Source: Pseudorhodobacter sp. MZDSW-24AT
GTDB lineage: Bacteria > Pseudomonadota > Alphaproteobacteria > Rhodobacterales > Rhodobacteraceae
DNA: 64,000 nt
NCBI RefSeq assembly: GCF_002794355.1
Contig: NZ_PGOI01000008.1
Span: 62,001 to 126,000 of the forward strand
Direction: 5' to 3'
The notes below the pieces were generated by a model. That model had not been told where the DNA came from. It made no database searches and saw only the letters and a list, made by a program, of their open reading frames with translations. Positions 26,975 to 51,330 of this stretch are shown here, in pieces. Made by a program: the position numbers and the translations under genes. The stretch's first letter is position 1; each line of letters opens with the position of its first letter.

Positions 26975-27086
26975 TGTAAGTCGGGGCATAGTTACTGCCA
27001 ACGTCGCAATATTATTCAATAAAATCAATGCGACATTTGTCTTGGGTGCAAAGGTTTTTGCTACTCGGGGCAAAGGTTTGACAGGC
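26975..27086. repeat. Left transposon end with three spaced TnsB-type sites
   Basis: Site L1 is 26975-26999 (TGTAAGTCGGGGCATAGTTA...), L2 about 27041-27061 (TTGGGTGCAAAGGTTTTTGC) and L3 about 27064-27086 (CTCGGGGCAAAGGTTTGACA). All are in the same orientation with a shared GGGGCAAAGGTTT core. The 40-base gap between L1 and L2 resembles the spaced left end of Tn7, and contains an additional inverted pair GTCGCA...TGCGAC. Confidence 0.8.
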
Positions 27087-27097
27087 GCCAAAGGAAT

Positions 27098-27125
27098 GCA
27101 AAAAGGGTCCGCAATTGCGGACCCT
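27098..27125 (-). terminator. Intrinsic terminator of the tns operon
   Basis: A perfect 22-bp palindrome at 27104-27125 (AGGGTCCGCA/TTGCGGACCCT arms) is followed on the minus strand by TTTTTGC. It lies 35 bases after the tniQ stop and just inside the left transposon end, so it would prevent tns transcripts leaving the element. Confidence 0.9.
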
Positions 27126-27160
27126 GTGCGATGGTCGAATCTTTGAGTGCGAGCAGTGGG

Positions 27161-28663
27161 CTACGGACTGTCCCTGTCGCCGGTTGCCTTTTGCCGATAT
27201 CCTAGGACGTCCGTCACCAGAACCCGAATTGCATCCAGCCGGGGATCCGGACGCGCACGCAATCCTGTAATCTTTCCTGACAGCACCGCTGCGATCAATT
27301 CGTCCGTTGTCCCACCATGGCGTTGGCACGCTTCACCGACCGAGAGAGACAGCTTGCGCTGTTCATCATTCACCATTGGCAGGGCGTCGATCTTGGCAAG
27401 AAGATCATCCAGAACGCGCCTTGCGAAAATCACTCCGCGGACCGCACCGGGAGCATCTGCCGGGATGATGGCAGGCAAGATGCCGGCGCCATAAAGGGCC
27501 TGGGTTTGGTTCTGGGTGCCGCCGATGTATTCTGGAACCTTGGCCAAGGGGATCGCATCCTCGTAATCCGTCACCAATTGCTCGACATCCTTGACCGGAA
27601 AAACAAGGCGTCCACTTTCGGCGTCTGTTGCTCCTTCTGGCACTAGGCCCAGCTTCTGCATCAGCCGCGACATGCGGCGTCGATCAACCTTCAGGGTAAG
27701 AGCCAAACTTTTCACGGAATGCAGGCGCCGTTCTGTCACCACCTCGCCAAGCAGCCTTTCACCTTGCATATATGCATCGTGGTCCAGGATGTGTTCACGA
27801 AGAATCGTGCGGATCTGCCCCGGAGCAATGAGCTGCGAACGGCGGTCGATCCAGTCATAGAGCATTCCATACATCGCGAAAGGACCTGCCTGAACTGCCG
27901 AAGCGAGAGCTTTTCGCCTGATGTCACTCAATGCCGCATAAACCGCATCATGGCCTTGTTCATAGATGCGAAAACCAGTTTCAAGGGCAGCACTTCGTTC
28001 AAGTCGTGTCAGTTTCCCCGGGCGGATATCCTGACCATGATCAAGAACCATGCCGAGATGCTCTGAGGCGTTCAGCACCTGTTCGATGCTTTGGCCCTCG
28101 AGCCAACCGGCGGCTTGCGCCATGCCCAGGCGAGCATGTAACCATGTGACATGTCGGCCAACATTGACACTGACCGCCGACATTTCGGCGAGTTCGCGGC
28201 CTCCGGCCTGATCTACGGCATCCTGGATATTCTCTGTCCCCTCTTGGGAAACTTCCACCAGGGTAGATGCATGCTTCAGGCAGATCACAATTGACCCAAA
28301 GCACCAGCCAAGTCGGTGACGCCATTCTTCGGGCGGGCCATCTTCTTGCAAGCAGTGCGGGCAGAACTGTCGAACACGCGATGCCAGACCAGTGCGGGAG
28401 TAGTCTTCCCCGCGAAATACATTGTGACGGGATAGCGCTCGCACCGTGCCTGCCAGAAGAGCTTTCGGATCCTCCCCCACCGCCGCCGCGAATGTCGCAA
28501 TATCCTCGGTGTGACCCGCCGCGAAGCGTGAAGGCTTCAACCCGCAATCTGCAAGCAGGCGACCGGCAGGCTGTCCGGTGTGCAGCATGGAGAGGCGAGT
28601 TGCATAAGACTGCACCGTTTCCGTCGGATCGTAAGGCACATGGGGAGTAAGCATCTTGACCAT
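27161..28663 (-). CDS. tniQ: TniQ/TnsD-family target-selection protein
   Basis: Target-site selector of a Tn7-like transposon, 500 residues. The N-terminal TniQ domain begins TPHVPYDPTETVQSYATRLS and carries a zinc-binding CPHCL pair near residue 105, with further Cys/His spacing (GWCFGSIVICLKH). The C-terminal half contains helix-turn-helix-like regions (LTLKVDRRRMSRLMQKLGLV near 320), consistent with sequence-specific binding of an attachment site as in TnsD. The ATG at 28663 forms a TGATG junction with tnsC; a GTG one codon upstream is possible. TnsD of Tn7 is about 508 residues, very close in length. The terminator follows 36 bases after its stop. Confidence 0.9.
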   Translation of the reverse strand: MVKMLTPHVPYDPTETVQSYATRLSMLHTGQPAGRLLADCGLKPSRFAAGHTEDIATFAAAVGEDPKALLAGTVRALSRHNVFRGEDYSRTGLASRVRQFCPHCLQEDGPPEEWRHRLGWCFGSIVICLKHASTLVEVSQEGTENIQDAVDQAGGRELAEMSAVSVNVGRHVTWLHARLGMAQAAGWLEGQSIEQVLNASEHLGMVLDHGQDIRPGKLTRLERSAALETGFRIYEQGHDAVYAALSDIRRKALASAVQAGPFAMYGMLYDWIDRRSQLIAPGQIRTILREHILDHDAYMQGERLLGEVVTERRLHSVKSLALTLKVDRRRMSRLMQKLGLVPEGATDAESGRLVFPVKDVEQLVTDYEDAIPLAKVPEYIGGTQNQTQALYGAGILPAIIPADAPGAVRGVIFARRVLDDLLAKIDALPMVNDEQRKLSLSVGEACQRHGGTTDELIAAVLSGKITGLRARPDPRLDAIRVLVTDVLGYRQKATGDRDSP

Positions 28664-29658
28664 CACCCGCGGTGTTCGAGAAGTTTGCGAAGATCCGGCC
28701 AGGCGCCAGAGTCAAACGGGGTTGGCTCGCCATCCATACCGCCCTGCAAAAGCCAGGTTCGCCGTGCGTCATCAAGCGTCACCGCAGATCTGCCATTGAC
28801 CAAGGCCCGGCGGATCGTTGCCTTCGCGAAGGCGATGGATCGGCCCAAACCTGCCTTCTGCGAAAAAACAATGCGTTCGGCAAAGAACGGATCGTCGGGA
28901 GGCAAAAGGTCAAGCTTGTTGCAACAAACCTCGATGAACCGCCTCAGGCGTTGCATGTCGGCCCCACCGACCAGAACACGCTGCAGGCGCTGACGCAAAC
29001 GGTAGCGCCTAAACGTCTCCGGATCAGACGCAATGCGGTCTTCCAGCTGCGGCACGCCGGACAGAATGACAGCGACTGCCCCCTCCCCCTGCAGCAAGTT
29101 CTTAAGCGCCTGTAGAGCACCCGCACTGTCGCGGCCGGTCCCGCCCCGCAAAAGGTGGTGGCCTTCATCGATCCAGAGGAGTGCCACACCGAGTAGCTTG
29201 AGGCGATGACGGACGATCCACCAAGCTTCATGCGCCTTGGTGCGCTCGGACAGCCGCGTGTAACCAGTTTTGACCAGGATGTCAGACGCAAGGCTCTTGA
29301 TAGTTGCCTCTGGTGCAACGGTGATATGGATGTAATTTCCCGAGGTCCCATCCGTCATCAATGCCAAGGACGGCACCGCCGATAGATTGCGCTCAATCAT
29401 TACCGACTTCCCATCTCCAGAGTCGCCGATCACCTGCATACCGAGCGTTTCGCCGTTCAGAGGATCTCTCACGGCAAGCGGCAAAAGGCTGCCATCGGCG
29501 CCGACTTGCAGGATTTCAGTAAGGAATTCCTGAAAATCGTCATCGCGGGCGTTCTTGAGATAGCGCGCGATCAACCAATCAGTGCGCCCCTTCAAGTCTT
29601 GGGCCGCGGGTGGATCGGCAACGGCGGTGAGTGTATTGAGTTCGGTCATTGGCATCAT
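28663..29658 (-). CDS. tnsC: TnsC/TniB AAA+ transposition regulator
   Basis: AAA+ ATPase of 331 residues that links target recognition to the transposase by forming filaments on DNA. Walker A reads VIGDSGDGKSVMIERN near residue 75 and Walker B LLWIDEGHHLLRGG near 155, followed by sensor sequence VILSGVPQLEDRI. Length and motifs are closer to TniB than to the 555-residue TnsC of Tn7. Its start overlaps the tnsB stop (ATGATG) and its end abuts tniQ, so all four genes appear translationally coupled. Confidence 0.92.
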   Translation of the reverse strand: MMPMTELNTLTAVADPPAAQDLKGRTDWLIARYLKNARDDDFQEFLTEILQVGADGSLLPLAVRDPLNGETLGMQVIGDSGDGKSVMIERNLSAVPSLALMTDGTSGNYIHITVAPEATIKSLASDILVKTGYTRLSERTKAHEAWWIVRHRLKLLGVALLWIDEGHHLLRGGTGRDSAGALQALKNLLQGEGAVAVILSGVPQLEDRIASDPETFRRYRLRQRLQRVLVGGADMQRLRRFIEVCCNKLDLLPPDDPFFAERIVFSQKAGLGRSIAFAKATIRRALVNGRSAVTLDDARRTWLLQGGMDGEPTPFDSGAWPDLRKLLEHRG

Positions 29659-31859
29659 TCCATGAGGTCCTCGTCATTTTCGGCGGACGCCGCACTGGCT
29701 GATCGCGCATTTGGCGCGGAGAGCATCAAAGGGGAAGAAGAAGAGGCGGCGATGTCGTCGGCACTAGGCAGCTCCACGATGTCTTCCAAAAGACCGAGAG
29801 GCTCGGATGCGTCAAAGGAACGCTCAGCAGTCGACATGAACCGCAGAAAATCTGCCTCATAGCGGTCGTAGGTCGCGTCATTGACGATGATGGGAAGTAG
29901 GCCACGAAGCGCCTTGTTCCGATAGGCTGCGACATCAAGCTCTGACACGGCGCGAGCCATGACCCTTTCAGAGCGGTCCCGTTCTCCCGCCAAATTGAAG
30001 CGAACCATCATAAGATCGTCGAAAGACTTCCCGACCCACTCTGGGTCTGATGCGGTGACATTCATCCACCGGTCCGGTGCGACCTTGACCGAAATTGTGC
30101 CAATATCGTGCGGCCACCAAGCCACCTCCAACACCTTTGGTTGCAATGGAGGAGCAAGGAAGATGCGTGCCAACTCGTCCGTCTGATACCGAATGTTCAT
30201 CATTGTGATACCGCCGGGTCCAAGAGTGCGATGACGACGAATACCAAACACCCGCCGCATTTCTTCACGCGACACGCCCTGCAATTGCGAGACCACCTGT
30301 GATTGCGCCCAAGCTTCGGCAGGCGTCCGGTTCAATAGTCCGGGATGCTTTTTGTTGTGGTAGAAGTCGACAATCCAACGGACGAGCCACTGCAGAAACT
30401 CATCGAGATCCAATGAAGCGCGAGCAGCTGGATCATTCTCACCCCTCTGAACCACGTTACTGAAAGTGCGACCCGAAAACCGCTGCGCAAAGCCAGAATG
30501 GATGGTCCTAAAAAGGCGTTCGATGAAAGGCCTGAGCCAAGGCATCTTCGCGGGAGCGCCAAGATTGGTGATGCCAAGGTCCGCGAGAAGTGCATAGGTT
30601 TCTTCGGTTAAATAGTTAGGCCCCCGATCCATCACGATCATTTCGGGCCGGCCATGCATGTTCCAACGTTCATGTGCGCCGACCGCATCTGAGATCGGCG
30701 CTTTATCTAAGAAAATCATTTCCACTGTATCGCGGAGTAAAGCCCTAGTATCGCCGGCAGAAATCTTCATTCCGACAATGCAGCGCGTGTGGACATCGAT
30801 AGCCGCAGACATCGTGACGCGCCTTGGCGTGCCATCGAGGCCAAGCATCGCGCGTTCCTCAGGACGGAGCCAGTCCCACACGCCGACGGCGTTCAGCAAG
30901 ACCATCAGATCGAATGTGTAGTCGTCGATCTCTACCCGGGCGAGCGCACGCTCTGCTTGGACTCCCACGCCGAGGGCGTGCATGTCACGATATGCCACCT
31001 TTAGCCCGCGCGTCCGAATGGCGTGATCGAGAGGTGCCATCGCCTTGATGGTTGCGTTTATGTAGTCATATCTGGGGGTGTTCAAAAAAGGTCCAGGTGG
31101 GTTTGATCGCGATGCATTTTCGTTGTGAACATTGAAAACTGCTCGCACGCTCGAGACGATCGACGCAATGGAGCAGCGTTCCTGGTCCAGACGCTGGTTG
31201 ATAACCGACTGAGCAAGTTCGCGCTCGGCATCGCTATAACGGCGGTCACGGTTGCCTGAGGTATGGTAGCGGTCAAAAAGTGCGTTTTGTCCACCATTCT
31301 GATACTGGGAATACCAAGTATAGATGTTGGCTGCCGATTTCGGCGGGCTGGACTGTGTGCCGATGTTTATCACCGCACCGCCACGCTTGCCGGCAGCCCC
31401 AGCCTTTTGCACAAGAAATCGGTTATAGTATATCGTTCCGAGAGCCAGGATGCGGTCAACGTTCGCACGGAAACCAGCGCGACTTTCTGCGACCACACCT
31501 TCTGAAATCAGCTGTTGGGCCGCTTCGACATAAGCGAGGCGGAACCTCATACGCCCTACCTCAGCTTCGGTGCGATGGCTTCGATCTCGCGAACCATCGC
31601 AGGCTGCTGCAGATGGACGCCGGACTATGGTCAAGCGCCCGTGCATATCGTAGCGACAGAAATCGTCATTCGAAATCGTGTCGGATATAGCGTGCAGGAT
31701 TTCGCCAGTTTCAGGGTCAACCTGCTCCTCCCACAACACCAGACAGGAAGTGCTGCGCAACTGCACCACCTTGCCACGGCGATTATTCAGCTCGAAAGTC
31801 GTGCCCTCCTCGACCGGGACCTGAGCCAATACTGAAAAGCTTCGGGTGTCCCGTTTCAT
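29655..31859 (-). CDS. tnsB: TnsB/TniA DDE transposase
   Basis: Transposase of 734 residues responsible for 3'-end cutting and strand transfer. The RNase H-fold catalytic core has Asp in ALARVEIDDYTFDLMVLL near residue 285, Asp in MIVMDRGPNYLTEETYALL near 395, and Glu in PWLRPFIERLFRTI near 430, i.e. an intact DDE triad. N-terminal DNA-binding domains (residues 100-260) should recognise the terminal repeats, and a beta-barrel plus short acidic C-terminal tail (ending SAASAENDEDLME) follows, the tail being the usual TnsC contact. The ATG at 31859 overlaps the tnsA stop. Confidence 0.93.
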   Translation of the reverse strand: MKRDTRSFSVLAQVPVEEGTTFELNNRRGKVVQLRSTSCLVLWEEQVDPETGEILHAISDTISNDDFCRYDMHGRLTIVRRPSAAACDGSRDRSHRTEAEVGRMRFRLAYVEAAQQLISEGVVAESRAGFRANVDRILALGTIYYNRFLVQKAGAAGKRGGAVINIGTQSSPPKSAANIYTWYSQYQNGGQNALFDRYHTSGNRDRRYSDAERELAQSVINQRLDQERCSIASIVSSVRAVFNVHNENASRSNPPGPFLNTPRYDYINATIKAMAPLDHAIRTRGLKVAYRDMHALGVGVQAERALARVEIDDYTFDLMVLLNAVGVWDWLRPEERAMLGLDGTPRRVTMSAAIDVHTRCIVGMKISAGDTRALLRDTVEMIFLDKAPISDAVGAHERWNMHGRPEMIVMDRGPNYLTEETYALLADLGITNLGAPAKMPWLRPFIERLFRTIHSGFAQRFSGRTFSNVVQRGENDPAARASLDLDEFLQWLVRWIVDFYHNKKHPGLLNRTPAEAWAQSQVVSQLQGVSREEMRRVFGIRRHRTLGPGGITMMNIRYQTDELARIFLAPPLQPKVLEVAWWPHDIGTISVKVAPDRWMNVTASDPEWVGKSFDDLMMVRFNLAGERDRSERVMARAVSELDVAAYRNKALRGLLPIIVNDATYDRYEADFLRFMSTAERSFDASEPLGLLEDIVELPSADDIAASSSSPLMLSAPNARSASAASAENDEDLME

Positions 31860-32545
31860 TGGCAAACGACCATATCGTTGGCCGCGACCAACGCGGACAG
31901 CGCGATCCGTTCCTTACGCAACAGCTTCAACCCTTGGCCATGAATGGCGCGTGCGACACCGAAAAGCGTCACACCGGCACTACGGCCTTCGGTCAGAAGA
32001 TGTTCTACCGTAACCGGTCCAGGAAGCTTCTTTCGAATCTCGCGAATGGCTTCGTCCTCGCAGAAGACAGGGCGCCGCGCTGCATGGAACAGCTTCGCAT
32101 TGAACAGATCCACCGGGTTGATATTTTGCTCCGTAACGATGGCCAACTTGTCGATCACGGCAGGGACAGCTGCTTGTGCAACTGCCTGCATTTCAGCGCG
32201 AAACTCTGGCTTCTTGGCGATGTGAGAAGGCTTGACGGCAATCCCGATGCGCAAGCCATTTCGAAACGTGGCGCGGTAGTCGAGATAATGGTGACCGATG
32301 TCACCATTCGCCTTACGAAACGCAACCGGTGCCAACTGCTCCTGTAGGTCTACGAAACCCGGGAGATAAACCGTGCAGATTGCCGTTGTGAACTCGAGGA
32401 AGCTCGCAAAACCAACCCGCTGTGGCTTTTCGATGCCAAATACGAATTCACCTACGAAGTGGCCCTGCGAAGACTTTGGAATTGGAAGCACGGCTCGGCT
32501 CTTGGCCGGCTCAGGCAGGTAATAGGTGGCAGCCACTGGCTTCAT
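31856..32545 (-). CDS. tnsA: TnsA-like transposon endonuclease
   Basis: Endonuclease expected to cut the 5' ends so that the element moves by cut-and-paste; 229 residues against 273 in Tn7 TnsA. The restriction-like fold is suggested by Glu in VGFASFLEFTTAICTVYL near residue 45, Asp in GHHYLDYRATF near 80, and Lys in GIAVKPSHI near 96. A helical C-terminal region (VTVEHLLTEG) follows, as in TnsA. The ATG at 32545 is preceded by GGAG at eight bases; the frame is open further upstream but without a ribosome-binding site. A divergent family member, so the call rests on motif spacing plus coupling to tnsB. Confidence 0.82.
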   Translation of the reverse strand: MKPVAATYYLPEPAKSRAVLPIPKSSQGHFVGEFVFGIEKPQRVGFASFLEFTTAICTVYLPGFVDLQEQLAPVAFRKANGDIGHHYLDYRATFRNGLRIGIAVKPSHIAKKPEFRAEMQAVAQAAVPAVIDKLAIVTEQNINPVDLFNAKLFHAARRPVFCEDEAIREIRKKLPGPVTVEHLLTEGRSAGVTLFGVARAIHGQGLKLLRKERIALSALVAANDMVVCQ

Positions 32546-32961
32546 CAGAAGTCTCCGTTCGACAATAGGGCGCCAGCCCTGCCCCGGACACCGGTGCAGG
32601 CTGAAGCTGTGGAAAGTCGAGAAAACCGCTTGCACTCTTCTGACGAGAGCTCACCTTAAAGGCAGATCATACGGGTTCGCCCGACACCTTTTGCCCGGCC
32701 TTGCGCCGGGCTTTTCTTTGGTGATCGTGGTTTGTGTGGAAGTTTCCTTCTGATGCTTTCCGATGCCCTAAGGATTCCGAGTCACCGCGAAAATCGAAAC
32801 CCCAAAAATTCCTCTATCCACAGGTAAGATGCCGACTGCCCGATCTCTCAAGTGCATGTTTACGAAAAACTATTTCGCATACTCAGGCGCGTCTGGGGGC
32901 CCTATCAAAGCAAATACCTTGCCAAAGGCAGCATTGCGGTAGCGAAGATGCACCATTGATT
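32546..32961. other. Intergenic region upstream of tnsA
   Basis: About 415 bases with no convincing gene, containing the tnsA promoter region and, on the plus strand, two consecutive hairpins with a T-rich tail (listed separately). A TTTCGCA sequence near 32872 recurs in the AT-rich region at 34.5-34.9 kb. Confidence 0.5.
32672..32719 (+). terminator. Orphan plus-strand terminator-like structure beside tnsA
   Basis: CGGGTTCGCCCG (32672-32683) is followed by GCCCGGC-CTTGC-GCCGGGC (32693-32711) and TTTTCTTT. This is an intrinsic terminator shape for rightward transcription, yet no plus-strand protein gene lies upstream. It may end a small RNA divergent to tnsA, or be a relic of an earlier gene. 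Confidence 0.55.
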
Positions 32962-34080
32962 TCAATGCCAGCGCGGAAGTGATTCCAGCACCAACGCATG
33001 ATCGAGACGCCGTGTCACTGTGCGTAAATTCGGGACCACCCCCCGCGAGATCGCGGATGCCAGCGCGTGGTTCACCGCATCGATCGACATCTCTTGAAGC
33101 CCGCGCCGCCGTCCCTCCCGGTCGGCGAACGCCTGCAACTGCGCCAACGTTAGATTTTGGAGACGCACCACTGTGCATCTATTGATCAGTGGGTCAGGGA
33201 GGACGTTCATGTCGTTTGACGTCAACACCCAGCCGATCCAGCTCATGTCGAACGGCAAGCGCAAAGTAGGGCAGTTCCAAGACGCTGCGCTAGATTTTTC
33301 CAGAAACGGCAAAAGCGCCTCGGCAAGCCCAAATGACGCATCCTTTGACGATCTGGCGGTGCCCGCTTTGTCAATCTCGTCGATGACGAAGATCGGATTT
33401 GCGCCCTTGGTTCTCAGGATCAGATCAAGCGGTCGGCCGATTATGCTGCCACTCCAGCCTATCTGTAGTCCCGTGATTCCGAAAGATGCCTGCTCGCCCG
33501 TCGCATCAAAGACTATACCTTCCACGCCTAGGAGCCGCGCAAGAGCGCGGGCCCAACTCGATTTCCCGATTCCTGGCGGTCCATCAAGCAGCAAGGGCTC
33601 AAGGCGGAAGCCGATCTCCCCCGAGACAACCGACCGACGCATTGCATTCCAAACGGCGGTCGTGGCTTCCGCCATCCAGGGGAAATCGGCATGCAGAGAC
33701 GCCGCAAGTTCGTCAGCCTTGTCTGGCGTGGCTATGCCAGCGACGGTTGCCCCGCGACTAAGCTGCTCAACCCGGGCCAAATCCTCCTTTGATAGATGCG
33801 CGAGACGGCTGTTTCGCGCATGATACGCCGCGATACGCTCGGCCCAAGTCCGGATGCGCCGTCGAACGCTCGCTGGCACGTCGCTGCTTACAGCGGGAGA
33901 GTCCCAGCCCGACAATGGATCTGTGCCCGTGCATGCCTGACGCGGCGCCAAAGTGTCGGTGACCGACCGAGATCGGAGCTTCTGCCAGTGCGCGATCAGC
34001 CGATCAAAGATGGCTGCTTCCTTCATGGCGGGATCAGGAAATGGGACAAGGACGAACGGGATACGTGATGCTTTGGTCAT
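32962..34080 (-). CDS. AAA+ ATPase of unknown role, transposon cargo
   Basis: A 372-residue protein. The C-terminal two thirds form an AAA+ module resembling the Lon/MoxR type: Walker A LLLDGPPGIGKSSWARAL near residue 165, Walker B NPIFVIDEIDKAGTA near 230, sensor-1 WVLTSNDMNVL near 280 and an arginine finger in PLINRCTVV. The N-terminal part is helical and unrecognised; no protease domain is present. Start choice is uncertain: ATG 34080 lacks a good ribosome-binding site, ATG 34113 has GAGG too close. It runs in the same direction as tnsA, 417 bases upstream, so a role in transposition or host takeover cannot be excluded; a defence role is equally possible. Confidence 0.75.
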   Translation of the reverse strand: MTKASRIPFVLVPFPDPAMKEAAIFDRLIAHWQKLRSRSVTDTLAPRQACTGTDPLSGWDSPAVSSDVPASVRRRIRTWAERIAAYHARNSRLAHLSKEDLARVEQLSRGATVAGIATPDKADELAASLHADFPWMAEATTAVWNAMRRSVVSGEIGFRLEPLLLDGPPGIGKSSWARALARLLGVEGIVFDATGEQASFGITGLQIGWSGSIIGRPLDLILRTKGANPIFVIDEIDKAGTARSSKDASFGLAEALLPFLEKSSAASWNCPTLRLPFDMSWIGWVLTSNDMNVLPDPLINRCTVVRLQNLTLAQLQAFADREGRRRGLQEMSIDAVNHALASAISRGVVPNLRTVTRRLDHALVLESLPRWH

Positions 34081-34113
34081 ACCGGATGCAAGAAGCTGAC
34101 GCCCGAAGCGCAT

Positions 34114-36558: not shown

Positions 36559-36617
36559 CCAAAAATGAGGTCTGCCTGCCATTGCCAGCCATCCTCATTC
36601 TCAAGGAACCCATTGCA

Positions 36618-38747: not shown

Positions 38748-39100
38748 AACAGCAACATACTCCCATCTCGCGCCTGAGGGCAGGCGAACGCCCGTGAAGA
38801 GACCTGAGCATGTTTTACTCAATCGGCGAAAAGGGTTCCGGCCGCCGAATGTGCCGGATTCGCCTGGAGCTTCGCGCGTTATGGGATTGCTCAATCAGCT
38901 GGGCTCTGTTGCAACAGAGCCATGGCGAGCAGGTCGTCGCGGCCGAGGGCCTCTTTGGTGGCGATTGCCATCGGGCTTGGCTGATCGCGGTCAAAGCCAT
39001 GGTTGGTGATCGATTTGGGCTGGTCGAGGACGAGACTGGGGACTATGCGCCGCGGGTCTGCGTGGTCTAAGAAGGCGCGAGATTTTGACGGAGGCTATTG
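38748..39100. other. Gap containing a perfect 20-bp palindrome
   Basis: About 350 bases without a supported gene. An open frame of 86 codons (38810-39070) runs straight through the palindrome at 38902-38921 and has no recognisable content. GC content rises here relative to both neighbours, suggesting a patch of different origin. Confidence 0.45.
38902..38921. repeat. Perfect palindrome resembling insertion-sequence termini
   Basis: GGCTCTGTTGCAACAGAGCC is a complete 20-bp palindrome. GGCTCTGTTGCAA is also the typical start of several IS6- and IS5-family terminal repeats, so this looks like two such termini fused head to tail, as after excision or deletion of an insertion sequence. No transposase gene is present beside it. 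Confidence 0.6.
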
Positions 39101-43625: not shown

Positions 43626-44011
43626 TTAAATGTTCCACGCTTGTTACGTATGTTCAATAATAGACCGAGGGTGGTCGGACAGTCTTGGATGCGAAGTTTA
43701 GCGAACCTCTGCTTTCTCCCCTTCTTCTCGGGCCGCTCGCGACAGCCGCAGAAGTCGAGTTCCCGCTGAGATCTGCAACGAAGTTCGGATATCAGACCTT
43801 GCTGCAAATCGCAGCGAATGTCCGCATCCCGCCCCTTGCGACGATCCAGGCCATAATCGACGTGTTCGGCCCTTAGCCGCCGATCAGGATGACTACTGCA
43901 CCGCGTTGCGGCCTCCCAAAACAGGTCATTCAAGAATACTGTGGTTTTTTTGGGCTTAGATTTTCAATTATGCGAGCTAAGCAGTAAGCGGTGTTTTGAC
44001 GCCACGGGGCG
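43626..44011. other. Gap before the type I restriction locus
   Basis: About 385 bases. Frames at 43685-43876 (plus) and 43511-43933 (minus) lack start signals, and their content looks like decayed coding sequence. The stretch near 43940-43985 is AT-rich. Confidence 0.4.
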
Positions 44012-44281
44012 TTAGCTTTTGCGGAATGGGATGACGTTGTCACCGCGCATGAATGCGATTGCGCCTTCAGCCTCGATGGCTTGGATCGCCGTATTGCGAG
44101 CATCTTTGTCGGACGTGAACTGGTCATCCCAGACGTGGCTGGTTCCTTCGTGGTCGACCACTTCGAGCGTCCAGGTCTTGTCCTGTTCGAGGCGATAGAT
44201 TTCGATGGAGAAGGGGAAGACATCGATGATGACGTGCTGGCTCTTTCCGAACGTGACCAGATTTGGTTCGTCTTCGATCAT
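44012..44281 (-). CDS. Small unknown protein divergent from hsdM
   Basis: An 89-residue protein from the ATG at 44281 (MIEDEPNLVTFGKSQHVIID). It is acidic, with EIYRLEQDKTWTLEVVDHEG in the middle and FMRGDNVIPFRKS at the end, and no membrane segment or signal. GGAG lies eight bases before this start; an ATG at 44314 would add 11 residues. It is divergent from hsdM with about 200 bases between. No family is recognised. It could be a controller or accessory of the restriction system, but no helix-turn-helix is evident. Confidence 0.6.
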   Translation of the reverse strand: MIEDEPNLVTFGKSQHVIIDVFPFSIEIYRLEQDKTWTLEVVDHEGTSHVWDDQFTSDKDARNTAIQAIEAEGAIAFMRGDNVIPFRKS

Positions 44282-44483
44282 CGGCGGCGCTCCGGGGATA
44301 CCCGCTCTTGCCAAGCATATTCAGTCGCTTCGCGATCAGTTTAACAACAGGATCGCGACAAACCACAGCAAGTTCAGCATGCAAAGGCTTGAAACAACCC
44401 GCGAAACAAGCCTCTTTGGCTGGCTTTCCGTTGCCACCAACGGCTATAGCTTGGCAATACCGCAAGAATGTAGGGGGCGCTCT

Positions 44484-46580
44484 GTGGAGCAGATCAACAA
44501 CATCGAAAAACGCCTCTGGGGTTCGGCTGATACCCTCCGCGCCAACTCGAACTTCGCCAGCAACGAATACTTCATGCCCGTCATGGGTCTGATCTTCCTG
44601 CGCCACGCTTATTCCCGATTCCTGAAAGTGCGGGACGAGATCATTCCCACGCTGCCCAGCCGGGGCGGTGTGGTCCGAGACCTAACCAAGGAAGACTTCT
44701 CCCGCCGCGGCTCCATCTATCTGCGCCCCGAAGCCCAGTTCGACATGCTGGTCAGCCTGCCCGAAGGGCAGAGCGCAGCGACCGCCCTGATCGCCGCGAT
44801 GGAAAGCATCGAAGGCGACTACGAGACACTCAAGGGCCTGCTGCCCAAGCAGGAATACGCGGAACTGGACGACGAGGTCCTGCGCCAGGTCCTGCGCATC
44901 TTCAATGACCCGGCGCTGCAACGGGCTGATGGCGACGTCTTCGGTCGCATCTACGAATACTTCTTGACCCAATTTGCCGACCAGAAGGCGCACGACAACG
45001 GCGAGTTCTTCACCCCCGTCAGCATCGTCGAAACCATCGTCAACGTCATCGAACCCACCCGCGGCAAGGTGATCGACCCCGCTTGCGGATCGGGCGGCAT
45101 GTTCGTTCAATCGGCGCATTTCGTGGAAATGCAGAAGGCCAACCCGAACGAACGCCTGACCTTCTACGGGATGGAAAAGAACCCCACGACCATCCGGCTG
45201 GCCAAAATGAACCTCGCCGTCCACGGGCTGGAGGGCGATATTCAGAAGGCGATCAGCTACTACGAGGACCCCCACAAGGACCACGGCCCCTTCGACTACG
45301 TCATGGCCAACCCGCCCTTCAACGTCGACGAGATCGACGCCGAAAAGATGAAGGATGACAAGCGCCTGTCCTTCGGCCTGCCGGGTGTCAACAAGGGCGG
45401 CAAGGTGTCGAACGGCAACTACATCTGGATGTCGTTCTTCCATTCCTACCTGTCGCCGCGCGGGCGGGCGGGGATCGTGATGTCCTCGCAGGCATCATCC
45501 GCGGGCGGGAAAGAGGCGGATGTCCGTCAGGCGCTGGTCAAGACCGGCGATGTCGACATCATGATCGCGATCCGGGGCAACTTCTTCTACACCCGCACCG
45601 TGCCGTGCGAGCTGTGGTTCTTCGACAAGGCTAAGCCCGACCATATGCGCGACAAGGTGCTGATGCTGGATGCGCGGCATGTGTTCCGGAAGGTCACGCG
45701 CAAGGTCTATGACTTCTCGCCCGAACAGATGCGCAACCTGACGGCCATCACCTGGCTTTATCGCGGGCAGACCGACCGCTTCACCGCCCTTGTGCAGGAC
45801 TATCTGGAAACGGCGCGGGCTGAGGCTGAGGGGGCGGATTTCACCGACCTTCTGGCGGCTGTTGATGCTTGCGCGGCCTTCTTCGCGACGCATCTGGACG
45901 ATGCCACCGTGACCGAGGCCGCCCAGCGACTGCGCGCGGATTGTGACGCCTTCGCGATGGCGGCGGCAGACCTGATCGCGGCCCCGGCCGAAATCGGCGC
46001 GCTGAATGCGCGGCTGTCGGTGATGCAGCCGGTGGGCGACAAGGCCAAGGCGCTGATCAAGGAAATCGACGCGGCCGCAAAGCTGCTGCAAAAGGCGCAA
46101 GAGGCGCTGGTGGCCAAGAGCGAGCGGCAGATCGAGGCGCAGACGAGCGACGCCGCCGCCAAGCGCGTGACGGCAGACGTGCGGAAAGTGGCGGCTGAGG
46201 GGAAAAAGCTGCTGGCGGCGGTGGCGGATGCGCGGGTAGCGTTGACGGGCGATCCTGCGGTGCAACTGGTGGTGACGGGCAGCCTGAAACGGTTCCGCTA
46301 TTTTGAAGGTCAGGCGCATTGGCTGCTGTCGCGCTTCCCCGATGGCGTGCTGCGCGATGTGCAGGGGCTGGTCAAGCTGGTGGATCACGCGGAACTGGCC
46401 GCCAATGATTATAGCCTGACGCCAGGGCGCTATGTGGGTGTCGCGCCGGAGGTCGACGATGACGAGTTCGATTTCAAAGAGGCGTTGCGCGAGATTCATC
46501 TGGAACTGGACGGGCTGAACCTTGAGGCGGCAGAACTGGCCGATGTGATCGCGAAGAACTTTGAAGAGTTGCTCGGATGA
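44484..46580 (+). CDS. hsdM: Type I restriction-modification methyltransferase subunit
   Basis: N6-adenine methyltransferase subunit of 698 residues. The GTG at 44484 is chosen: AGGGGG lies seven bases before it and the protein then begins EQINNIEKRLWGSADTLRAN, the usual HsdM opening. S-adenosylmethionine motif I is VIDPACGSGGMF near residue 200, and the catalytic NPPF motif is YVMANPPFNVDE near 277. The last 200 residues form a long helical extension beyond the common 500-residue core. Its stop overlaps hsdS (ATGA). GC content jumps to host-like values at this gene, unlike the AT-richer cargo before it, which suggests a separate acquisition. Confidence 0.95.
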   Translation: MEQINNIEKRLWGSADTLRANSNFASNEYFMPVMGLIFLRHAYSRFLKVRDEIIPTLPSRGGVVRDLTKEDFSRRGSIYLRPEAQFDMLVSLPEGQSAATALIAAMESIEGDYETLKGLLPKQEYAELDDEVLRQVLRIFNDPALQRADGDVFGRIYEYFLTQFADQKAHDNGEFFTPVSIVETIVNVIEPTRGKVIDPACGSGGMFVQSAHFVEMQKANPNERLTFYGMEKNPTTIRLAKMNLAVHGLEGDIQKAISYYEDPHKDHGPFDYVMANPPFNVDEIDAEKMKDDKRLSFGLPGVNKGGKVSNGNYIWMSFFHSYLSPRGRAGIVMSSQASSAGGKEADVRQALVKTGDVDIMIAIRGNFFYTRTVPCELWFFDKAKPDHMRDKVLMLDARHVFRKVTRKVYDFSPEQMRNLTAITWLYRGQTDRFTALVQDYLETARAEAEGADFTDLLAAVDACAAFFATHLDDATVTEAAQRLRADCDAFAMAAADLIAAPAEIGALNARLSVMQPVGDKAKALIKEIDAAAKLLQKAQEALVAKSERQIEAQTSDAAAKRVTADVRKVAAEGKKLLAAVADARVALTGDPAVQLVVTGSLKRFRYFEGQAHWLLSRFPDGVLRDVQGLVKLVDHAELAANDYSLTPGRYVGVAPEVDDDEFDFKEALREIHLELDGLNLEAAELADVIAKNFEELLG

Positions 46581-47785
46581 GTTGGCCAACCTATGCGCTT
46601 GACGAATTGGGTGTTGTCTCAAGAGGACGGTCGCGCCACCGCCCACGCGATGCGCAACACCTTTACGGTGGTCCGTTTCCCTTCGTGCAGACCGGTGACG
46701 TAAAGGCCGCGCCCCTCTACCTCACCAGCTATTCGCAAACCTACAGCGAGGCTGGACTGGCGCAAAGCAAACTGTGGCCAGCCGGAACTCTCTGCATAAC
46801 CATTGCTGCGAACATCGCGGAAACTTGCATCTTGGGTATAGATGCCTGTTTTCCTGACAGTATTATCGGTTTCGTCGCTGATCCCGGTAAGGCGGATACG
46901 ACCTTCATCAAGTATCAATTTGACGCCGTGATGCGGGAAAAGATGAAGCGGGTTAGCCAAGGTGTCGCGCAGGACAACCTGTCTCAAGAAAAGCTTCTAT
47001 CGTTTCGTTTCCCTGTCCCCGACCTCCTCACCCAACAGCGCATCGCGGGGATACTCTCGGCCTATGACGACCTGATCGAGAACAACCGGCGGCGGATCGG
47101 GTTGTTGGAGCAGGCGGCGCGGCTGCTTTCCCGCGAATGGTTCGTCCACCTCCGCTTTCCTGGCCACGAGACGGCAAAGATCGTCGACGGCCTGCCGGAG
47201 GGGTGGGAGCGCATGCCCGCATCCGAAGCGATGCATATCAACCCTCGGACGACTTGGAAGGCTTCGGAATCGAAGCTGATCACAATGGTGCCGATGGGGG
47301 CCCTCTCGACTTCAGGTATGAACTGCGACCCTTCCCTGTTTGAGCGGCGCGAACAACCGGCGGGCGTCAAGTTCATGAATGGTGACACGCTGTTCGCTCG
47401 GATTACACCGTGTCTTGAGAATGGAAAGACCAGCTATGTGAATTTCCTGCAGGAGGGCGAAGTCGCCTGCGGCTCGACGGAGTTTGTCGTTTTCAGGGAA
47501 CGTCGCATCAGTCGCTTCATGGCATATCTGCTCGCGAGAGAAGAAGGTTTCCGAAAGAACGCAATTTCAAGCATGGTCGGTTCATCCGGTCGTCAGCGCG
47601 TTCAACCAAGCTGTTTCGACAAATATCTTGTCCCGGTCCCGCCAAAGCCAGTCGTCGAGGATTTTGATCGGGTAGTTGAGCCGATGTTTCGAGAGATCGA
47701 ACACATCGACAAATCCATTGGCAAACTCACCCGCGCCCGCGACCTGCTCCTCCCACGCCTGATGGATGGACGCATTCCCGTTTAA
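46577..47785 (+). CDS. hsdS: Type I restriction-modification specificity subunit
   Basis: DNA-recognition subunit of 402 residues determining which bipartite site is bound. Two target-recognition domains are separated by helical spacers: the first from residue 1 to about 155, then QQRIAGILSAYDDLIENNRR, the second from about 205 to 355, then the C-terminal spacer ending RDLLLPRLMDGRIPV. The first domain spacer and the C-terminal spacer are the conserved parts. Base composition is less regular than in hsdM and hsdR, as expected for domains exchanged between strains. It lies 15 bases before hsdR. Confidence 0.93.
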   Translation: MSWPTYALDELGVVSRGRSRHRPRDAQHLYGGPFPFVQTGDVKAAPLYLTSYSQTYSEAGLAQSKLWPAGTLCITIAANIAETCILGIDACFPDSIIGFVADPGKADTTFIKYQFDAVMREKMKRVSQGVAQDNLSQEKLLSFRFPVPDLLTQQRIAGILSAYDDLIENNRRRIGLLEQAARLLSREWFVHLRFPGHETAKIVDGLPEGWERMPASEAMHINPRTTWKASESKLITMVPMGALSTSGMNCDPSLFERREQPAGVKFMNGDTLFARITPCLENGKTSYVNFLQEGEVACGSTEFVVFRERRISRFMAYLLAREEGFRKNAISSMVGSSGRQRVQPSCFDKYLVPVPPKPVVEDFDRVVEPMFREIEHIDKSIGKLTRARDLLLPRLMDGRIPV

Positions 47786-47800
47786 GTGTAGTCTTTGCCC

Positions 47801-50800
47801 ATGAACGATTTCACCGAAGATCAGCTTGTCCAGAAAACCATGGCCGACTACCTCGCCACCCAGCACGGCTGGCGCGTGGTCATGGCCTGGAACAAGGAGG
47901 TCTTCGGAGCCGAAGGCACGCTGGGCCGCAAGTCCGACAAGGACGTGGTGCTGACGCGGTATCTGTCCGAGGCGCTGTTGCGGCTGAACCCCGGCCTGCC
48001 CGACATGGCCTATGAGGCGGCTTTGCGCGAGATCACCGACATCTTCGGCTCTCAATCCCTGCTGCACATCAATCAGGACAAATACGGCCTGATCCGCGAC
48101 GGCGTGCGGGTGAAGTTCCGGGCGAGCGGCGAACAGCGCAGCGAACGGCTGCGGGTGTTCGATTTCGACGTGCCGGAAAACAACGACTTCCTCGCCGTGC
48201 GCGAGCTGTGGGTGCGCGGCTATGCCCATCGCCGCCGCGCCGATATCGTGGGGTTCGTCAACGGCCTGCCGCTGATGTTCTGCGAGCTGAAGCGCCCTGA
48301 CAAGGATCTGAAACGCGCCTATGCCGAGAACCTGTCGGACTACAAGGACACGGTCCCGCACCTGTTCCACTTCAACGCCTTTGTCATCCTGGGCAATGGC
48401 GAGCTGGCCAAGATGGGGTCGATCAGCGCGGATTACGACCATTTCTCCGACTGGCTGAAGCTGGACGAGCGTGACCGCCGCGACGAGCTGCTGCCGATGG
48501 AGGCGCTGCTGCGCGTCGTCTTCGACAAGCGGCGGTTCATGGACCTGTTCGAAAATTTCATCCTGTTCGCCGACACCGCGAACGGCCCGGTGAAGATCCT
48601 CGCCAAGAACCACCAGTTCCTAGGCGTGAACCGCGCGGTCGATGCCGTGGCGAACCGCCGTGCGCTGGACGGCAAGCTGGGCGTGTTCTGGCATACGCAG
48701 GGGTCGGGCAAGTCCTTTTCCATGGCGCTGTTCACGCAAAAGGTGCATCGGCGGCTGGGTGGCGATTTCACCTTTCTGGTGCTGACCGACCGGACCGATC
48801 TGGACAACCAGATCTACAAGACCTTCGCCAGCGTGGGCCTTGCCAACAACGACAGGGACCCCTGCCGCGCCGGATCGGCGCAGGAGTTGCGCGATCTGCT
48901 GGGCCAGCAGAAGAAGGTGATCTTCGGGATGATCCAGAAGTTCACCGATGATCAGGCGAAGGCGGGCATCTATTCCGACCGCGACAACATCATCGTGGTG
49001 ACCGACGAAGCGCACCGGTCGCAATACGGCACGCTGGCGCTGAACATGCGCAAGGCGCTGCCCAACGCCGCATTTATCGGTTTCACGGGCACGCCGCTGT
49101 TTTCAAATGATGAGGTCACGAAGAAGGTATTTGGCGCCTACCTTTCGACCTATGATTTCCAGGACGCCATCGAGGACGGGGCGACCCTGCCGCTCTACTA
49201 CGACGCACGCGGCGACAAGCTGCGTCTGTCAGGCGACGGACTGAACGAAAAGCTGGCCGCTGCCATCGCCGATGCCGAAATCGACGACCCGGATGTGGCC
49301 GCCAAGCTGTCGGATGACCTGAAGCGCGAATACCACATCGTCACGGCCGAGCCACGCCTGCGCCATATCGCGAAGGATTTCGCGTGGCATTTTGCGGCGA
49401 ACTGGGAGAGCGGCAAAGCGATGTTCGTCGCCATCGACAAGGTCACGGCCGTCCGTATGTATGATTTCATCTCGGAAGCCTGGACCGCCCGGATCGCGGA
49501 ACTGGAGAAGGATCTGGTTCATGTGTCCGACGACCAGGAACGCGTGATCCGCACCCAGCAGATCGAATGGATGCGGAAGACCGAGATGGCCGTCGTCGTG
49601 AGCGACGAGCAGGGCGAGGTTCAGAAGTTCAGGAACTGGGGCCTCGATATCATCCCGCACCGCAAGCGGATGAAGGATGGCTTCACGGTCAAGGAAGTGG
49701 TCGGCGGTCGGGAGGTCGAAAAGCGGCTCGATGTGGAAACCGCGTTCAAGCGCGATGACCACCCGTTCCGGATCGTGATCGTCTGCGCGATGTGGCTGAC
49801 CGGCTTCGACGTGCCGTCGCTTTCGACGCTCTATCTCGACAAGCCGCTACAAGCCCACACGCTGATGCAGGCCATCGCCCGCGCCAACCGGGTCAAAGAA
49901 GGTAAGAATAATGGCCTGATCGTCGACTATTGCGGGATCCTGAAGAACCTGCGCAAGGCGCTGGCAACGTTCGCGGGCCACACCGGAGGCAGTGGTCCGA
50001 TGGGCGGTGACGAGGGTGAGCCAACCGTTGATCCTTTGAACCCGGAAGAGGCGCTTCTTGCTGAGCTCGCAGAGGCCATCCAGATCGTGCGCGAAGGCCT
50101 GCGGGCGGATGGCTTCGGCCTCGAACGACTGCACGTGGAAGATGGCTTCAAGAAGCTGACGGCGCTTAGGGATGCCAAGGAACTCATCAACGCGAATGAC
50201 GAGTCCCGGAAGCGGTTCGAAATCGCGGCACGGGCGGTGTTTCGCAAATACAAGTCCTGCCTGACCTTTGCGAAGGTCGAGATTTTCAAATCCGACTATC
50301 AGGCAATCAACTACGTCTACAGTTCGCTCCAAGACGACAAGGCGGCCGCTGATACATCAGCCATCATCCAGAAGCTGAACGCACTCGTGGCGGAGGCCAT
50401 CGACATCCGGCCTGACAGCGAGGGCGACCGAGTCTTTGACATCTCAAAGGTTAATTTCGAACTCCTGCGAAAGGAGTTTGCCAAAAACGAACGCCCGGCC
50501 AGTGACGTGCAAGATCTCCGGACCGTTCTTCAGGAACGGCTGGCAAAGATGCTGGCGGCCAACCCAACTTTGACTGACTTCCAGGACCGTTTCGACAAGA
50601 TCGTGGCGGAATACAACAAGGAAAAGGACAAGAACACGATCGAAGCCACCTTCGAAGCGCTGATGAGGATCGCCGCCGATTTGGAAGATGAGGCGCAAAG
50701 CCATGTGGCACTTGGCCTGACATTAGAACAAAAGCCCGTTTTCGACCTTCTGATGCAGGATGACCTATCAAAAGAAGAGATCCGGCAGATCAAGTCAGTA

Positions 50801-51043
50801 TCGGTCGAAATTTTGAAGGCGATACAAAGGCGCATGGAGGACGTGCAAGACCTCTTTGAAAAGCAGAGCACCCGCGACGGGCTTCGCCAAGAGATCTACG
50901 ACCTGCTTTACGATGACCGCACAGGTCTGCCCGCATCAAAGTATGGCGAAGATACGCTTTTCGAAAAGACGGACGCCATCTTCCAACACTTCATGCACCA
51001 ATTTGATTATCGCACAGACGCTGGTTCACATCCCCGCCCTTGA
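47801..51043 (+). CDS. hsdR: Type I restriction endonuclease subunit
   Basis: Motor and nuclease subunit, 1080 residues. The N-terminal nuclease domain has Asp in HRRRADIVGFVNG and Glu-Lys in MFCELKRPD (about residues 145-170). The superfamily 2 translocase follows with Walker A FWHTQGSGKSFSMAL near 305, DEAH-box VVTDEAHRSQYG near 400, motif III FIGFTGTPLF near 425 and the C-terminal RecA-like domain with TGFDVPSLSTLYLDKPL near 670. A helical region mediates assembly. The whole gene is intact. Type I systems restrict incoming DNA lacking the HsdS-directed methylation, so this is the clearest defence function carried by the transposon. Confidence 0.95.
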   Translation: MNDFTEDQLVQKTMADYLATQHGWRVVMAWNKEVFGAEGTLGRKSDKDVVLTRYLSEALLRLNPGLPDMAYEAALREITDIFGSQSLLHINQDKYGLIRDGVRVKFRASGEQRSERLRVFDFDVPENNDFLAVRELWVRGYAHRRRADIVGFVNGLPLMFCELKRPDKDLKRAYAENLSDYKDTVPHLFHFNAFVILGNGELAKMGSISADYDHFSDWLKLDERDRRDELLPMEALLRVVFDKRRFMDLFENFILFADTANGPVKILAKNHQFLGVNRAVDAVANRRALDGKLGVFWHTQGSGKSFSMALFTQKVHRRLGGDFTFLVLTDRTDLDNQIYKTFASVGLANNDRDPCRAGSAQELRDLLGQQKKVIFGMIQKFTDDQAKAGIYSDRDNIIVVTDEAHRSQYGTLALNMRKALPNAAFIGFTGTPLFSNDEVTKKVFGAYLSTYDFQDAIEDGATLPLYYDARGDKLRLSGDGLNEKLAAAIADAEIDDPDVAAKLSDDLKREYHIVTAEPRLRHIAKDFAWHFAANWESGKAMFVAIDKVTAVRMYDFISEAWTARIAELEKDLVHVSDDQERVIRTQQIEWMRKTEMAVVVSDEQGEVQKFRNWGLDIIPHRKRMKDGFTVKEVVGGREVEKRLDVETAFKRDDHPFRIVIVCAMWLTGFDVPSLSTLYLDKPLQAHTLMQAIARANRVKEGKNNGLIVDYCGILKNLRKALATFAGHTGGSGPMGGDEGEPTVDPLNPEEALLAELAEAIQIVREGLRADGFGLERLHVEDGFKKLTALRDAKELINANDESRKRFEIAARAVFRKYKSCLTFAKVEIFKSDYQAINYVYSSLQDDKAAADTSAIIQKLNALVAEAIDIRPDSEGDRVFDISKVNFELLRKEFAKNERPASDVQDLRTVLQERLAKMLAANPTLTDFQDRFDKIVAEYNKEKDKNTIEATFEALMRIAADLEDEAQSHVALGLTLEQKPVFDLLMQDDLSKEEIRQIKSVSVEILKAIQRRMEDVQDLFEKQSTRDGLRQEIYDLLYDDRTGLPASKYGEDTLFEKTDAIFQHFMHQFDYRTDAGSHPRP

Positions 51044-51260
51044 TGAGAGCGGCAGATTTCCTTGCCTTTAACTTATGAAGCACCCGAGTGGCAGGTCTTG
51101 ACCGATCTGGGTTTTGTGATCTCGCTCTGGAGGCTTTCAGCAGCCATCAACTGATAAACGTCCGCATGGCGACCGAAGTGTCGGCCAGCTACTTTCGTTG
51201 CCCACAGACCCTCTCCTACAAATTGCGGAACAAGGGCGCACATCAAAAATTCAACCACTT
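51044..51260. other. Gap between hsdR and the right transposon end
   Basis: About 215 bases after the hsdR stop with no gene and no evident terminator. It leads directly into the three right-end repeats. Confidence 0.45.
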
Positions 51261-51326
51261 ACAAAACCTTTGCCCCGAACCGGAAAAACCTTGCCCCAAA
51301 CGGCAGCAACTATGCCCCGATTTATA
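51261..51326. repeat. Right transposon end with three contiguous TnsB-type sites
   Basis: Site R3 is 51261-51280 (ACAAAACCTTTGCCCCGAAC), R2 51281-51300 (CGGAAAAACCTTGCCCCAAA) and R1 51301-51326 (CGGCAGCAACTATGCCCCGA then TTTATA). They are inverted relative to the left-end copies and packed head to tail every 20 bases. Tn7 likewise has a compact right end next to its target gene, so this end is taken as the right end. Confidence 0.82.
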
Positions 51327-51330
51327 AAGC

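Follow-up and report, generated by a model that had tools for sequence, protein, structure and literature searches.

A Tn7-like element with type I restriction cargo beside an NDUS4-family gene, a probable attachment site in Rhodobacterales

A block of transposition and restriction genes next to an NDUS4-family gene of Pseudorhodobacter sp. MZDSW-24AT raises the question of whether it is a transposon that selects this gene as its target, and in what state the present copy is. The window, i.e. the whole 64,000-nucleotide stretch of DNA that was analysed, holds at 26975-51326 a Tn7-like element of about 24 kb with the genes tnsA-tnsB-tnsC-tniQ and hsdMSR cargo; core genes, ends and hsdMSR family matches upheld the sequence-only reading that had proposed such an element. 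Our answer, which we regard as very likely, is that of a Tn7-like transposon of a Rhodobacterales-centred lineage, probably of the cut-and-paste kind, whose TnsD-like TniQ would home to the 3′ end of NDUS4, with hsdMSR and defence genes as passengers, in a copy that has probably been rearranged. The sequence features behind this are the tnsABC-tniQ core, the spaced and compact ends with TnsB-type sites, the NDUS4 junction shared with relatives, and 5-bp duplications in several relatives; from positions we infer its homing and movement.

The matching 25-bp termini reported earlier agree at 22 of 25 positions (TGTAAGTCGGGGCATAGTTACTGCC at 26975 on the plus strand, TATAAATCGGGGCATAGTTGCTGCC at 51326 on the minus strand), against a background of one opposite-strand match of comparable quality for 400 random 25-mers of the window. 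No further copies of the termini occur in the 3.86-Mb draft genome at ≤3 mismatches; the repeats are thus single-copy, and the wide occurrence elsewhere in the genome that had been named as refuting the reading was not seen. Homology with two relatives, G009 and G002, begins at 26975, and homology with element-free relatives begins at 51326-51350, so that comparison with relatives supports both boundaries. GC content is 0.558 within the element, 0.659 in the left flank and 0.637 in the right flank, and the same ends enclose differing middle cargo, 57 kb in G009 vs 24 kb in the window. That chance alone has brought ordinary chromosomal genes, the restriction operon and the tns genes, next to each other, for which no direct evidence was found, is next to impossible against these borders, the GC step and the identical ends around different cargo, and the boundary comparison already refutes it. 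The suggested check for an empty site, with 26974 joined directly to 51327, found none among the relatives covered.

The four core genes lie on the minus strand and are open, with full-length alignment to relatives, and the overlaps described earlier were confirmed as 10, 4 and 4 bp in the order tnsA-tnsB-tnsC-tniQ. The TnsD-like tniQ (27161..28666, 501 aa) carries an N-terminal TniQ domain (Pfam TniQ, 1.1e-16), tnsC (28663..29658, 331 aa) encodes an AAA+ protein of the TniB family (Pfam TniB 1.1e-14, AAA_22 2.3e-11), and the tnsB transposase (29655..31865, 736 aa) matched in phmmer the I-F3 TnsB chains at 1e-25 and Tn7 TnsB 7pik at 1.7e-7. TnsB residues D314/D413/E449, which we take to be the DDE triad, are invariant in 6/6 aligned sequences. 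The tnsA-like endonuclease gene (31856..32635, possibly starting at an ATG near 32545) was assigned by operon position and by E51/D89/K105, invariant in 5/5 homologues. The claim of intact catalytic motifs agrees with these invariant residues, but the window TnsA has no Pfam match, and a TnsA N domain match, sub-threshold, was obtained in 2/3 relatives tested. For TnsB, Pfam gave rve and Mu-transpos_C below cut-off and NCBIfam gave IS481/IS3/IS630 models only, all below cut-off; TniQ, TnsC and TnsA had no NCBIfam match. Upstream of tnsA on the same strand lies an AAA+ ATPase gene with a Lon-like AAA module (32962..34113; Pfam AAA 7.7e-13, NCBIfam lon AAA region), which is found in the same position in G009 (89%), as a 42% relative in Leisingera (L213), and as fragments in G002.

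The C-terminal half of TniQ is predicted to consist of repeated strand-helix-helix, winged-helix-like units (AlphaFold, pLDDT 81.7). PDB sequence searches with TniQ and with TnsA returned no matches, and the nearest PDB folds of TniQ were the TniQ structures 6v9p/6lnd, a weak match with a best E of 1.1e-3. Since the closest solved relative of TnsB by sequence is that of type I-F3 CAST elements (Tn6677 and relatives) and the nearest solved TniQ folds are CAST TniQ, an RNA-guided element in which TniQ acts with a Cascade-like complex was considered. This reading is very improbable and was rejected: no cas family was found by Pfam in the 18 element ORFs, no direct repeat of ≥20 nt within 120 bp and no Rfam match were detected, and, unlike in type I-F3 CAST, tniQ lies within the tnsABC operon and encodes a 501-aa protein whose C-terminal half is predicted to bind DNA, as in the self-targeting TnsD proteins described in passages of PMC10293859. 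Restriction systems are, according to a part of PMC6360697, frequent cargo of Vibrio I-F3 CAST elements too.

The left, target-distal end (26975..27125, plus strand; terminus TGTAAG) has three spaced TnsB-type sites at +9, +71 and +93, and the right, target-proximal end (51240..51326, minus strand; terminus TATAAATC) has three compact ones at +9, +30 and +51. At ≤2 mismatches the whole window contains 16 such sites, six of them in the two 150-bp ends. The right terminus reads TGTAAATC in 8/8 compared relatives, so that it opens with TGT there, as does the left terminus, vs TAT in the window copy. The terminator proposed for the tns operon is present as a 9-bp stem with a T tail at 27104-27125 (minus strand), 3′ of tniQ; the scan found one site of this type vs a shuffle mean of 0.5, a count that by itself is not above chance.

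The sequence-only reading had not recognised the arrangement with its outward-running operon, which is usual in this lineage: in 29/37 related loci tried, only 169-297 bp separate the distal end from the tniQ match. The direction is as in Tn7. This search covered 37 of 41 named loci, after L204, L217, L218 and L219 were dropped as tniQ fragments, and a left end, defined as the best match to a loose motif within 700 bp, was found in 29. A number of the named loci coincide with contigs of the numbered genomes (e.g. L190 is G358 and L194 is G298), and no tnsABC genes were recognised in the fetched flank of L190, L206 and L211.

Tn7 of E. coli, at attTn7 downstream of glmS, resembles the element in combining tnsA-B-C with a TniQ/TnsD selector, in a right end that adjoins a conserved gene left intact, and in the 5-bp duplications seen in relatives of the window element. 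The target is glmS in Tn7 vs NDUS4 here, and Tn7 inserts about 25 bp past the glmS stop codon, whereas the window lineage inserts 3-7 bp past that of NDUS4. In Tn7 the cargo lies on the left-end side of the tns genes, whereas here it occupies the stretch from the right end to tnsA; no tnsE was found among the 18 element ORFs scanned with Pfam. A further likeness is that each end carries several TnsB sites, closely packed beside the target and spaced out at the far end; part of these Tn7 features is described in PMC11406308. The operon direction is equal as well, the right end lying upstream of the tns genes by the convention in PMC11406308, and here adjoining the target gene. Table 1 of that paper pairs one lineage with one conserved att gene in Tn6230 (yhiN), Tn6022 (comM) and Tn7017 (parE), among other Tn7-like elements, and none of the att genes given in the parts of PMC11406308 concerned is NDUS4.

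The NDUS4-family gene (complex I Fe-S protein 4 family; 51331..51642, minus strand; Pfam NDUS4 4e-35) has its stop codon 4 bp from the right end. Element-type ends 3-7 bp past the NDUS4 stop were found in 19/345 family genomes, vs 1/345 for a reversed control pattern, and all 19 matches lay at this distance with a pattern that allowed 0-12 bp. Insertion past this conserved gene thus keeps a set distance, and also a set orientation in all but one of the checkable cases. The junction was present in 7/9 genomes with a close tniQ vs 12/335 others (p=1.6e-8, Fisher, with related genomes and hence draws that are not independent). The close clade comprised nine genomes besides the window's own at E≤1e-70, a cut-off chosen after a gap had been noticed, with the next-best genomes at 1e-45 or weaker and a second copy in G359 at 3e-56. 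The junction also occurs without a close tniQ, since 9/19 junction genomes had no TniQ match at E≤1e-30 and 3/19 had weaker ones (3/20 of the weaker-tniQ genomes); these junctions may be remnants, or the site may be used by other selectors. Two close-tniQ genomes, G243 and G249, are without the junction pattern, and at the G243 locus one end has the sequence TGTAGC and so would escape the pattern. NDUS4 was on the right-end side in 9/10 cases having NDUS4 and tniQ on one contig (the window, G009, G298, G226, G358, L203, L206, L208 and L211), the exception being L215 with NDUS4 at the left end. Within the genus, NDUS4 was strongly found in 13/16 genomes, and an element end adjoins it in 6/13. 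A tRNA target was rejected, as the window has no tRNA. NDUS4 was not found as a Tn7 attachment site in the titles, abstracts and passages searched, and the main text of Benler et al. 2021 (PMC8649781) contains neither 'NADH' nor 'ETC complex'.

The window copy itself has no 5-bp target duplication (ACGAA vs AAGCT). Perfect duplications flank 4/10 other mapped elements (G009 CCGTG, G298 CGACG, L203 GATCA, L206 AGCCT), and four bases are shared in G358 (4/5) and, as 4 bp offset by one position, in G226, L211 and G006, the ends of G006 lying on different contigs with their pairing assumed. None was found in L208, or in G002, whose ends are on different contigs. Because a duplication belongs to one insertion, its absence weakens the notion of a complete and recently moved element and leaves the family assignment as it was. 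The earlier description as 'complete' therefore stands only in part: ends, core genes and cargo are present, whereas the copy has no target duplication, its right terminus has changed to TAT, and a gene at 41974-43625 looks split.

A comparison with 30 NDUS4 loci, including that of the window, yielded no counterpart of the left flank at 25000-26974, and where the left-flank genes have copies in the genus, NDUS4 did not turn up. The gene after NDUS4 in G014, which is free of the element, is a GNAT gene; in the window genome the homologue of this GNAT gene is 51.7 kb away from NDUS4. In same-genus G006 an element left end lies 14 bases past the stop of an entericidin gene equivalent to window 10108-10248, and so window 10297-26974 (16.7 kb) represents extra DNA here. 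The flank was rejected as a part of the element, as pieces of it are elsewhere in relatives and element homology begins at 26975. The missing duplication, the TAT terminus and the 16.7 kb of other DNA before the relative's flank together make it probable that, after landing, the window copy underwent rearrangement on its distal side, and the mobility of this copy is uncertain.

In a stronger form, this copy would be a hybrid or remnant, no longer mobile but fixed as an island, in which the ends come from two insertions in a recombined head-to-tail stack or the DNA beyond the left end was replaced. We rate this as nearly, not quite, an even chance. The unmatched ACGAA and AAGCT, the TAT terminus, the extra DNA implied by G006, and the commonness of stacks (12/29 loci, with a 2.2-kb remnant in the G002 stack) all point that way; yet none of the four core genes is interrupted, each aligning in full with relatives, the cargo modules at left and right are the same pair as around the G009 element with its perfect duplication, and non-TGT ends occur in some Tn7-like elements according to a section of PMC11406308. 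L208 likewise has no matching duplication, despite NDUS4, tnsB-tnsC-tniQ (partly split) and both ends within about 6 kb.

The full hsdMSR operon of the earlier reading was borne out, all on the plus strand, with family matches covering most of each protein: hsdM (44205..46580, its true start probably further inside this ORF; N6_Mtase 5.4e-76, HsdM_N 5.3e-12, PADLOC MTase_I 1.2e-249), hsdS (46577..47785; Methylase_S 4.2e-21, Specificity_I 1.6e-87) and hsdR (47795..51043; SWI2_SNF2 2.6e-71, HSDR_N 1.7e-40, REase_I 8.9e-168). The type I restriction-modification set, known here from its genes, is accordingly all present. Between the window and G009, HsdM is 94% and HsdR 96% identical, while HsdS differs with both variable regions replaced. 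As hsdR abuts the right end in 3/6 same-genus right ends (the window genome, G009 and G006), this pattern would also fit an addiction-like module that stabilises the element and is hence kept at the right end despite changing specificity; we consider this unlikely, because plain defence cargo accounts for the identical pattern and the 10-20 kb retrieved past the right end of the other three (G002, G004, G011) contained no hsdR. Restriction-modification is the commonest defence cargo in Table 1 of Benler et al. 2021 (PMC8649781), with 947 of 6,549 Tn7-like transposons, and by its gene content the system is ordinary cargo, the other defence-type genes being likewise passengers.

Further plus-strand cargo comprises two calcineurin-like metallophosphoesterase genes (35689..36558, Pfam 6.1e-16, present in G009 at 82% with more distant copies in L194 and L201; and 36582..37424, Pfam 1.5e-15), a DUF4238 protein gene as candidate defence cargo (37752..38747; Pfam 2.9e-42, PADLOC DUF4238-Pers 1.1e-9), an ORF without family match whose N-terminal region, judged by eye, likely includes a membrane segment (39098..39874), and a homologue of the anti-phage protein PD-T7-5 (40526..41683; PADLOC 1.6e-128). 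On the minus strand, two ORFs overlapping in different frames (43065-43625 and 41974-43116), with no family at cut-off, are probably a single broken gene. By eye, the first part of this pair has an HExxH motif.

In the proposed mechanism, the C-terminal domains of TniQ would bind the 3′ coding end of NDUS4 and TniQ would recruit TnsC, after which TnsA and TnsB would excise the element and insert it with the right end towards NDUS4. As the attachment site would be kept after insertion, later elements could enter between NDUS4 and the earlier element and give rise to head-to-tail stacks. In two elements the right-end restriction module is retained with its specificity subunit exchanged. Elements stack head to tail, because a second element end begins 3-6 bp past the distal end in 12/29 loci (control 24/20000), and in the two stacks compared the ends were closely similar. 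At the threshold of 16/25, L184, L198 and L213 fell below and were left uncounted though real-looking by eye, and L216 just reached it.

We suggest tentatively, holding it somewhat more doubtful than not, that a Rhodobacterales-centred Tn7-like lineage adopted the NDUS4 3′ end, is under little or no target-immunity restraint there, and builds ordered stacks with each newcomer inserted on the NDUS4 side of its predecessor. To the Tn7-like attachment sites found in the papers covered, the lineage adds a conserved complex I gene, with insertion only a short way past it. Frequent stacking lets target immunity, working or failing, be asked about directly in a natural Tn7-like lineage, and ordered stacking at NDUS4, if true, would make the locus a record of defence cargo arriving in succession.

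The element occupies positions 26975-51326 of the window (G000:C25:62001-126000 in the 3.86 Mb, 26-contig draft genome), with a GC percentage of 55.8 inside against 65.9 on the left and 63.7 on the right. The genes tnsA, tnsB, tnsC and tniQ, overlapping by 10, 4 and 4 bp, are located on the minus strand and run towards the left, distal end, where tniQ is followed by a terminator-like stem (27104-27125; one in the scan versus 0.5 expected from shuffles). TnsB matched type I-F3 TnsB chains (1e-25) and Tn7 TnsB (1.7e-7). TnsC and TniQ were recognised by Pfam and the window TnsA was not; in TnsA homologues, E, D and K positions were invariant, and weak TnsA matches were obtained in two of the three relatives tested. 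On the basis of core genes, end anatomy and a fixed junction, the element is a real Tn7-like transposon, as the sequence-only reading had proposed, and the boundaries named there (26975 and 51326) are correct. The tns genes do run outward, as that reading had noted, but the layout, which it did not recognise, is typical of the lineage.

The two 25-bp termini are identical at 22 positions. A check for termini common elsewhere in the genome, a pattern that had been put forward as speaking against a transposon, found no further copy in the draft genome when up to 3 mismatches were allowed. TnsB-type sites are spaced at the left terminus (+9, +71, +93) and compact at the right (+9, +30, +51). The right terminus of the window copy reads TATAAATC, and that of all eight compared relatives TGTAAATC. 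In the description of Tn7-like ends in PMC11406308, the right end is by convention the one upstream of the tns genes, and the end with overlapping TnsB sites appears nearest the attachment site; both points hold here, as the compact end adjoins NDUS4.

The NDUS4-family gene (complex I Fe-S protein family, 103 aa) has its stop codon 4 bp from the right end, and the next gene is uvrB. NDUS4 was matched strongly in 13 genomes of the genus, and in 6 of these an element end was present beside it. When 345 family genomes were scanned for the NDUS4 3′ end, stop codon, 0-12 bases and then TGTAAATC, the junction was found in 19 genomes, versus one for the reversed control, and the spacing was always 3-7 bases (3, n = 7; 4, n = 3; 5, n = 5; 6, n = 3; 7, n = 1). 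TniQ relatives at E≤1e-70 were identified in nine genomes besides the source genome, and the junction was present in seven of these versus 12 of 335 others (p = 1.6e-8, uncorrected for genome relatedness). Genomes lacking a close tniQ can also carry the junction: of the 19, nine gave no hit to TniQ at E≤1e-30, and three gave weaker ones.

Among 41 tniQ loci fetched from relatives, most belong to genera that we take to be Rhodobacterales, and one (Maritalea mobilis) is classified under Hyphomicrobiales. The retrieved flank contained NDUS4 on the right-end side in five loci, in three of which (L190, L206, L211) tnsABC were not recognised, and on the left-end side in one (L215). In total, NDUS4 was on the right-end side in nine of ten checkable cases. 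At L215 (Mangrovicoccus ximenensis, 11383-11960), the sole reversed case seen, it is the element's left end that the NDUS4 3′ end faces; tniQ matches there fall in two frames.

The sequences show the core genes, the anatomy of the ends, the fixed junction, the orientation of the elements, the duplications in relatives and the stacking. In the proposed mechanism, the 3′ coding end of NDUS4 would be bound by TniQ. The AlphaFold model of TniQ (pLDDT 81.7, 8 sequences) had TniQ structures as its best Foldseek matches (E 1.1e-3; none ≤0.001), and short Xis- and BldC-type matches in the list were all at E>1. The C-terminal half of the model consists of repeated strand-helix-helix units, and this predicted layout is the same as that with which target-binding TnsD proteins are described in PMC10293859.

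The related element of the same-genus genome G009 (C11:21667-78902, 57.2 kb) is flanked by a perfect CCGTG duplication and shares with the window a left module (tniQ, tnsC, tnsB, tnsA, the AAA gene, two metallophosphoesterases) and a right module (hsdM 94%, hsdR 96%); its middle had no match to any other window cargo protein, and its tniQ is broken across two frames. At another locus (L170, G006 C7, near 12419), tniQ homology breaks off at the equivalent of window 27696, as might result from an insertion sequence within tniQ, and the contig ends shortly after.

In the window, hsdM, hsdS and hsdR have family matches across most of their length. HsdM and HsdR are 94-96% identical between the window and G009 elements. 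In HsdS (window 46577-47785; G009 C11:74000-75350), compared by eye, the central and terminal conserved stretches are common and both variable regions differ, and therefore specificity has probably been exchanged. Together with a PD-T7-5 homologue (1.6e-128), a DUF4238 protein and two metallophosphoesterases, hsdMSR forms a likely defence set. The restriction cargo is ordinary: among the defence cargo of Tn7-like elements, restriction-modification ranks first in PMC8649781 (947 in its Table 1), and the Vibrio elements described in PMC6360697 carry, at sites that they share, differently numbered restriction systems. Metallophosphoesterases like the window tandem pair (35689-37424) also occur near tnsA in distant lineage elements (L194, L201). 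Immediately upstream of tnsA lies a Lon-like AAA+ gene (32962-34113), which recurs in Pseudotabrizicola and has a relative of 42% identity in Leisingera aquaemixtae (L213:4412-5491); it may have an accessory role in transposition or serve in defence. At 41974-43625 (minus strand), a pair of ORFs overlaps in different frames and looks like a single gene that has been broken; it has an HExxH motif and belongs to no named family.

Perfect duplications were also found at L203 (GATCA) and L206 (AGCCT), and the 17.2 kb element of Pacificibacter G298, the genome that also holds locus L194, has CGACG at both flanks. The window copy has no target duplication (ACGAA left versus AAGCT right). In the element-free G014, a GNAT gene directly follows NDUS4; its homologue in the source genome is at C25:61131-61577, ca. 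0.4 kb left of the window, which places 51.7 kb between GNAT and NDUS4. G006, G009, G011 and G001 all conserve the block from GNAT to the entericidin gene (window 10108-10248; Pfam 2.7e-5), and in G006 an element left end lies 14 bases past the entericidin stop codon, so that window 10297-26974 represents extra DNA in the source genome. The missing duplication is therefore best explained by a later left-side change or by recombination inside a former stack. The window copy is probably rearranged, and may be immobile by now. Pieces of 10297-26974 sit elsewhere in G008, G013, G014 and G001, and the region accordingly looks like a hot spot. By reading, this 16.7 kb carries genes of the molybdenum-hydroxylase type and genes for iron uptake and two-component systems; Pfam adds VIT1. 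A second GC dip (0.58) is located at 55000-58000, around a thyX-type gene (56533-57633, minus strand; Pfam Thy1).

Of the 29 loci in which a left end could be recognised, 12 had a further right end 3-6 bases past it, against 24 of 20000 randomly placed control positions, and in the two cases compared (G002 and L206) the neighbouring right ends closely resemble the element's own. A 2.2-kb remnant at L058 (G002 C87, 12528-14773), which retains the two ends of an element and pieces of the AAA gene and has no tns genes, is possibly a non-autonomous derivative within a stack. NDUS4 was not found as a landing site of Tn7-like elements in the literature searched; this landing site and the frequent head-to-tail stacking are the new points. 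For the lineage, such stacking indicates either weak immunity or a build-up of elements over long times.
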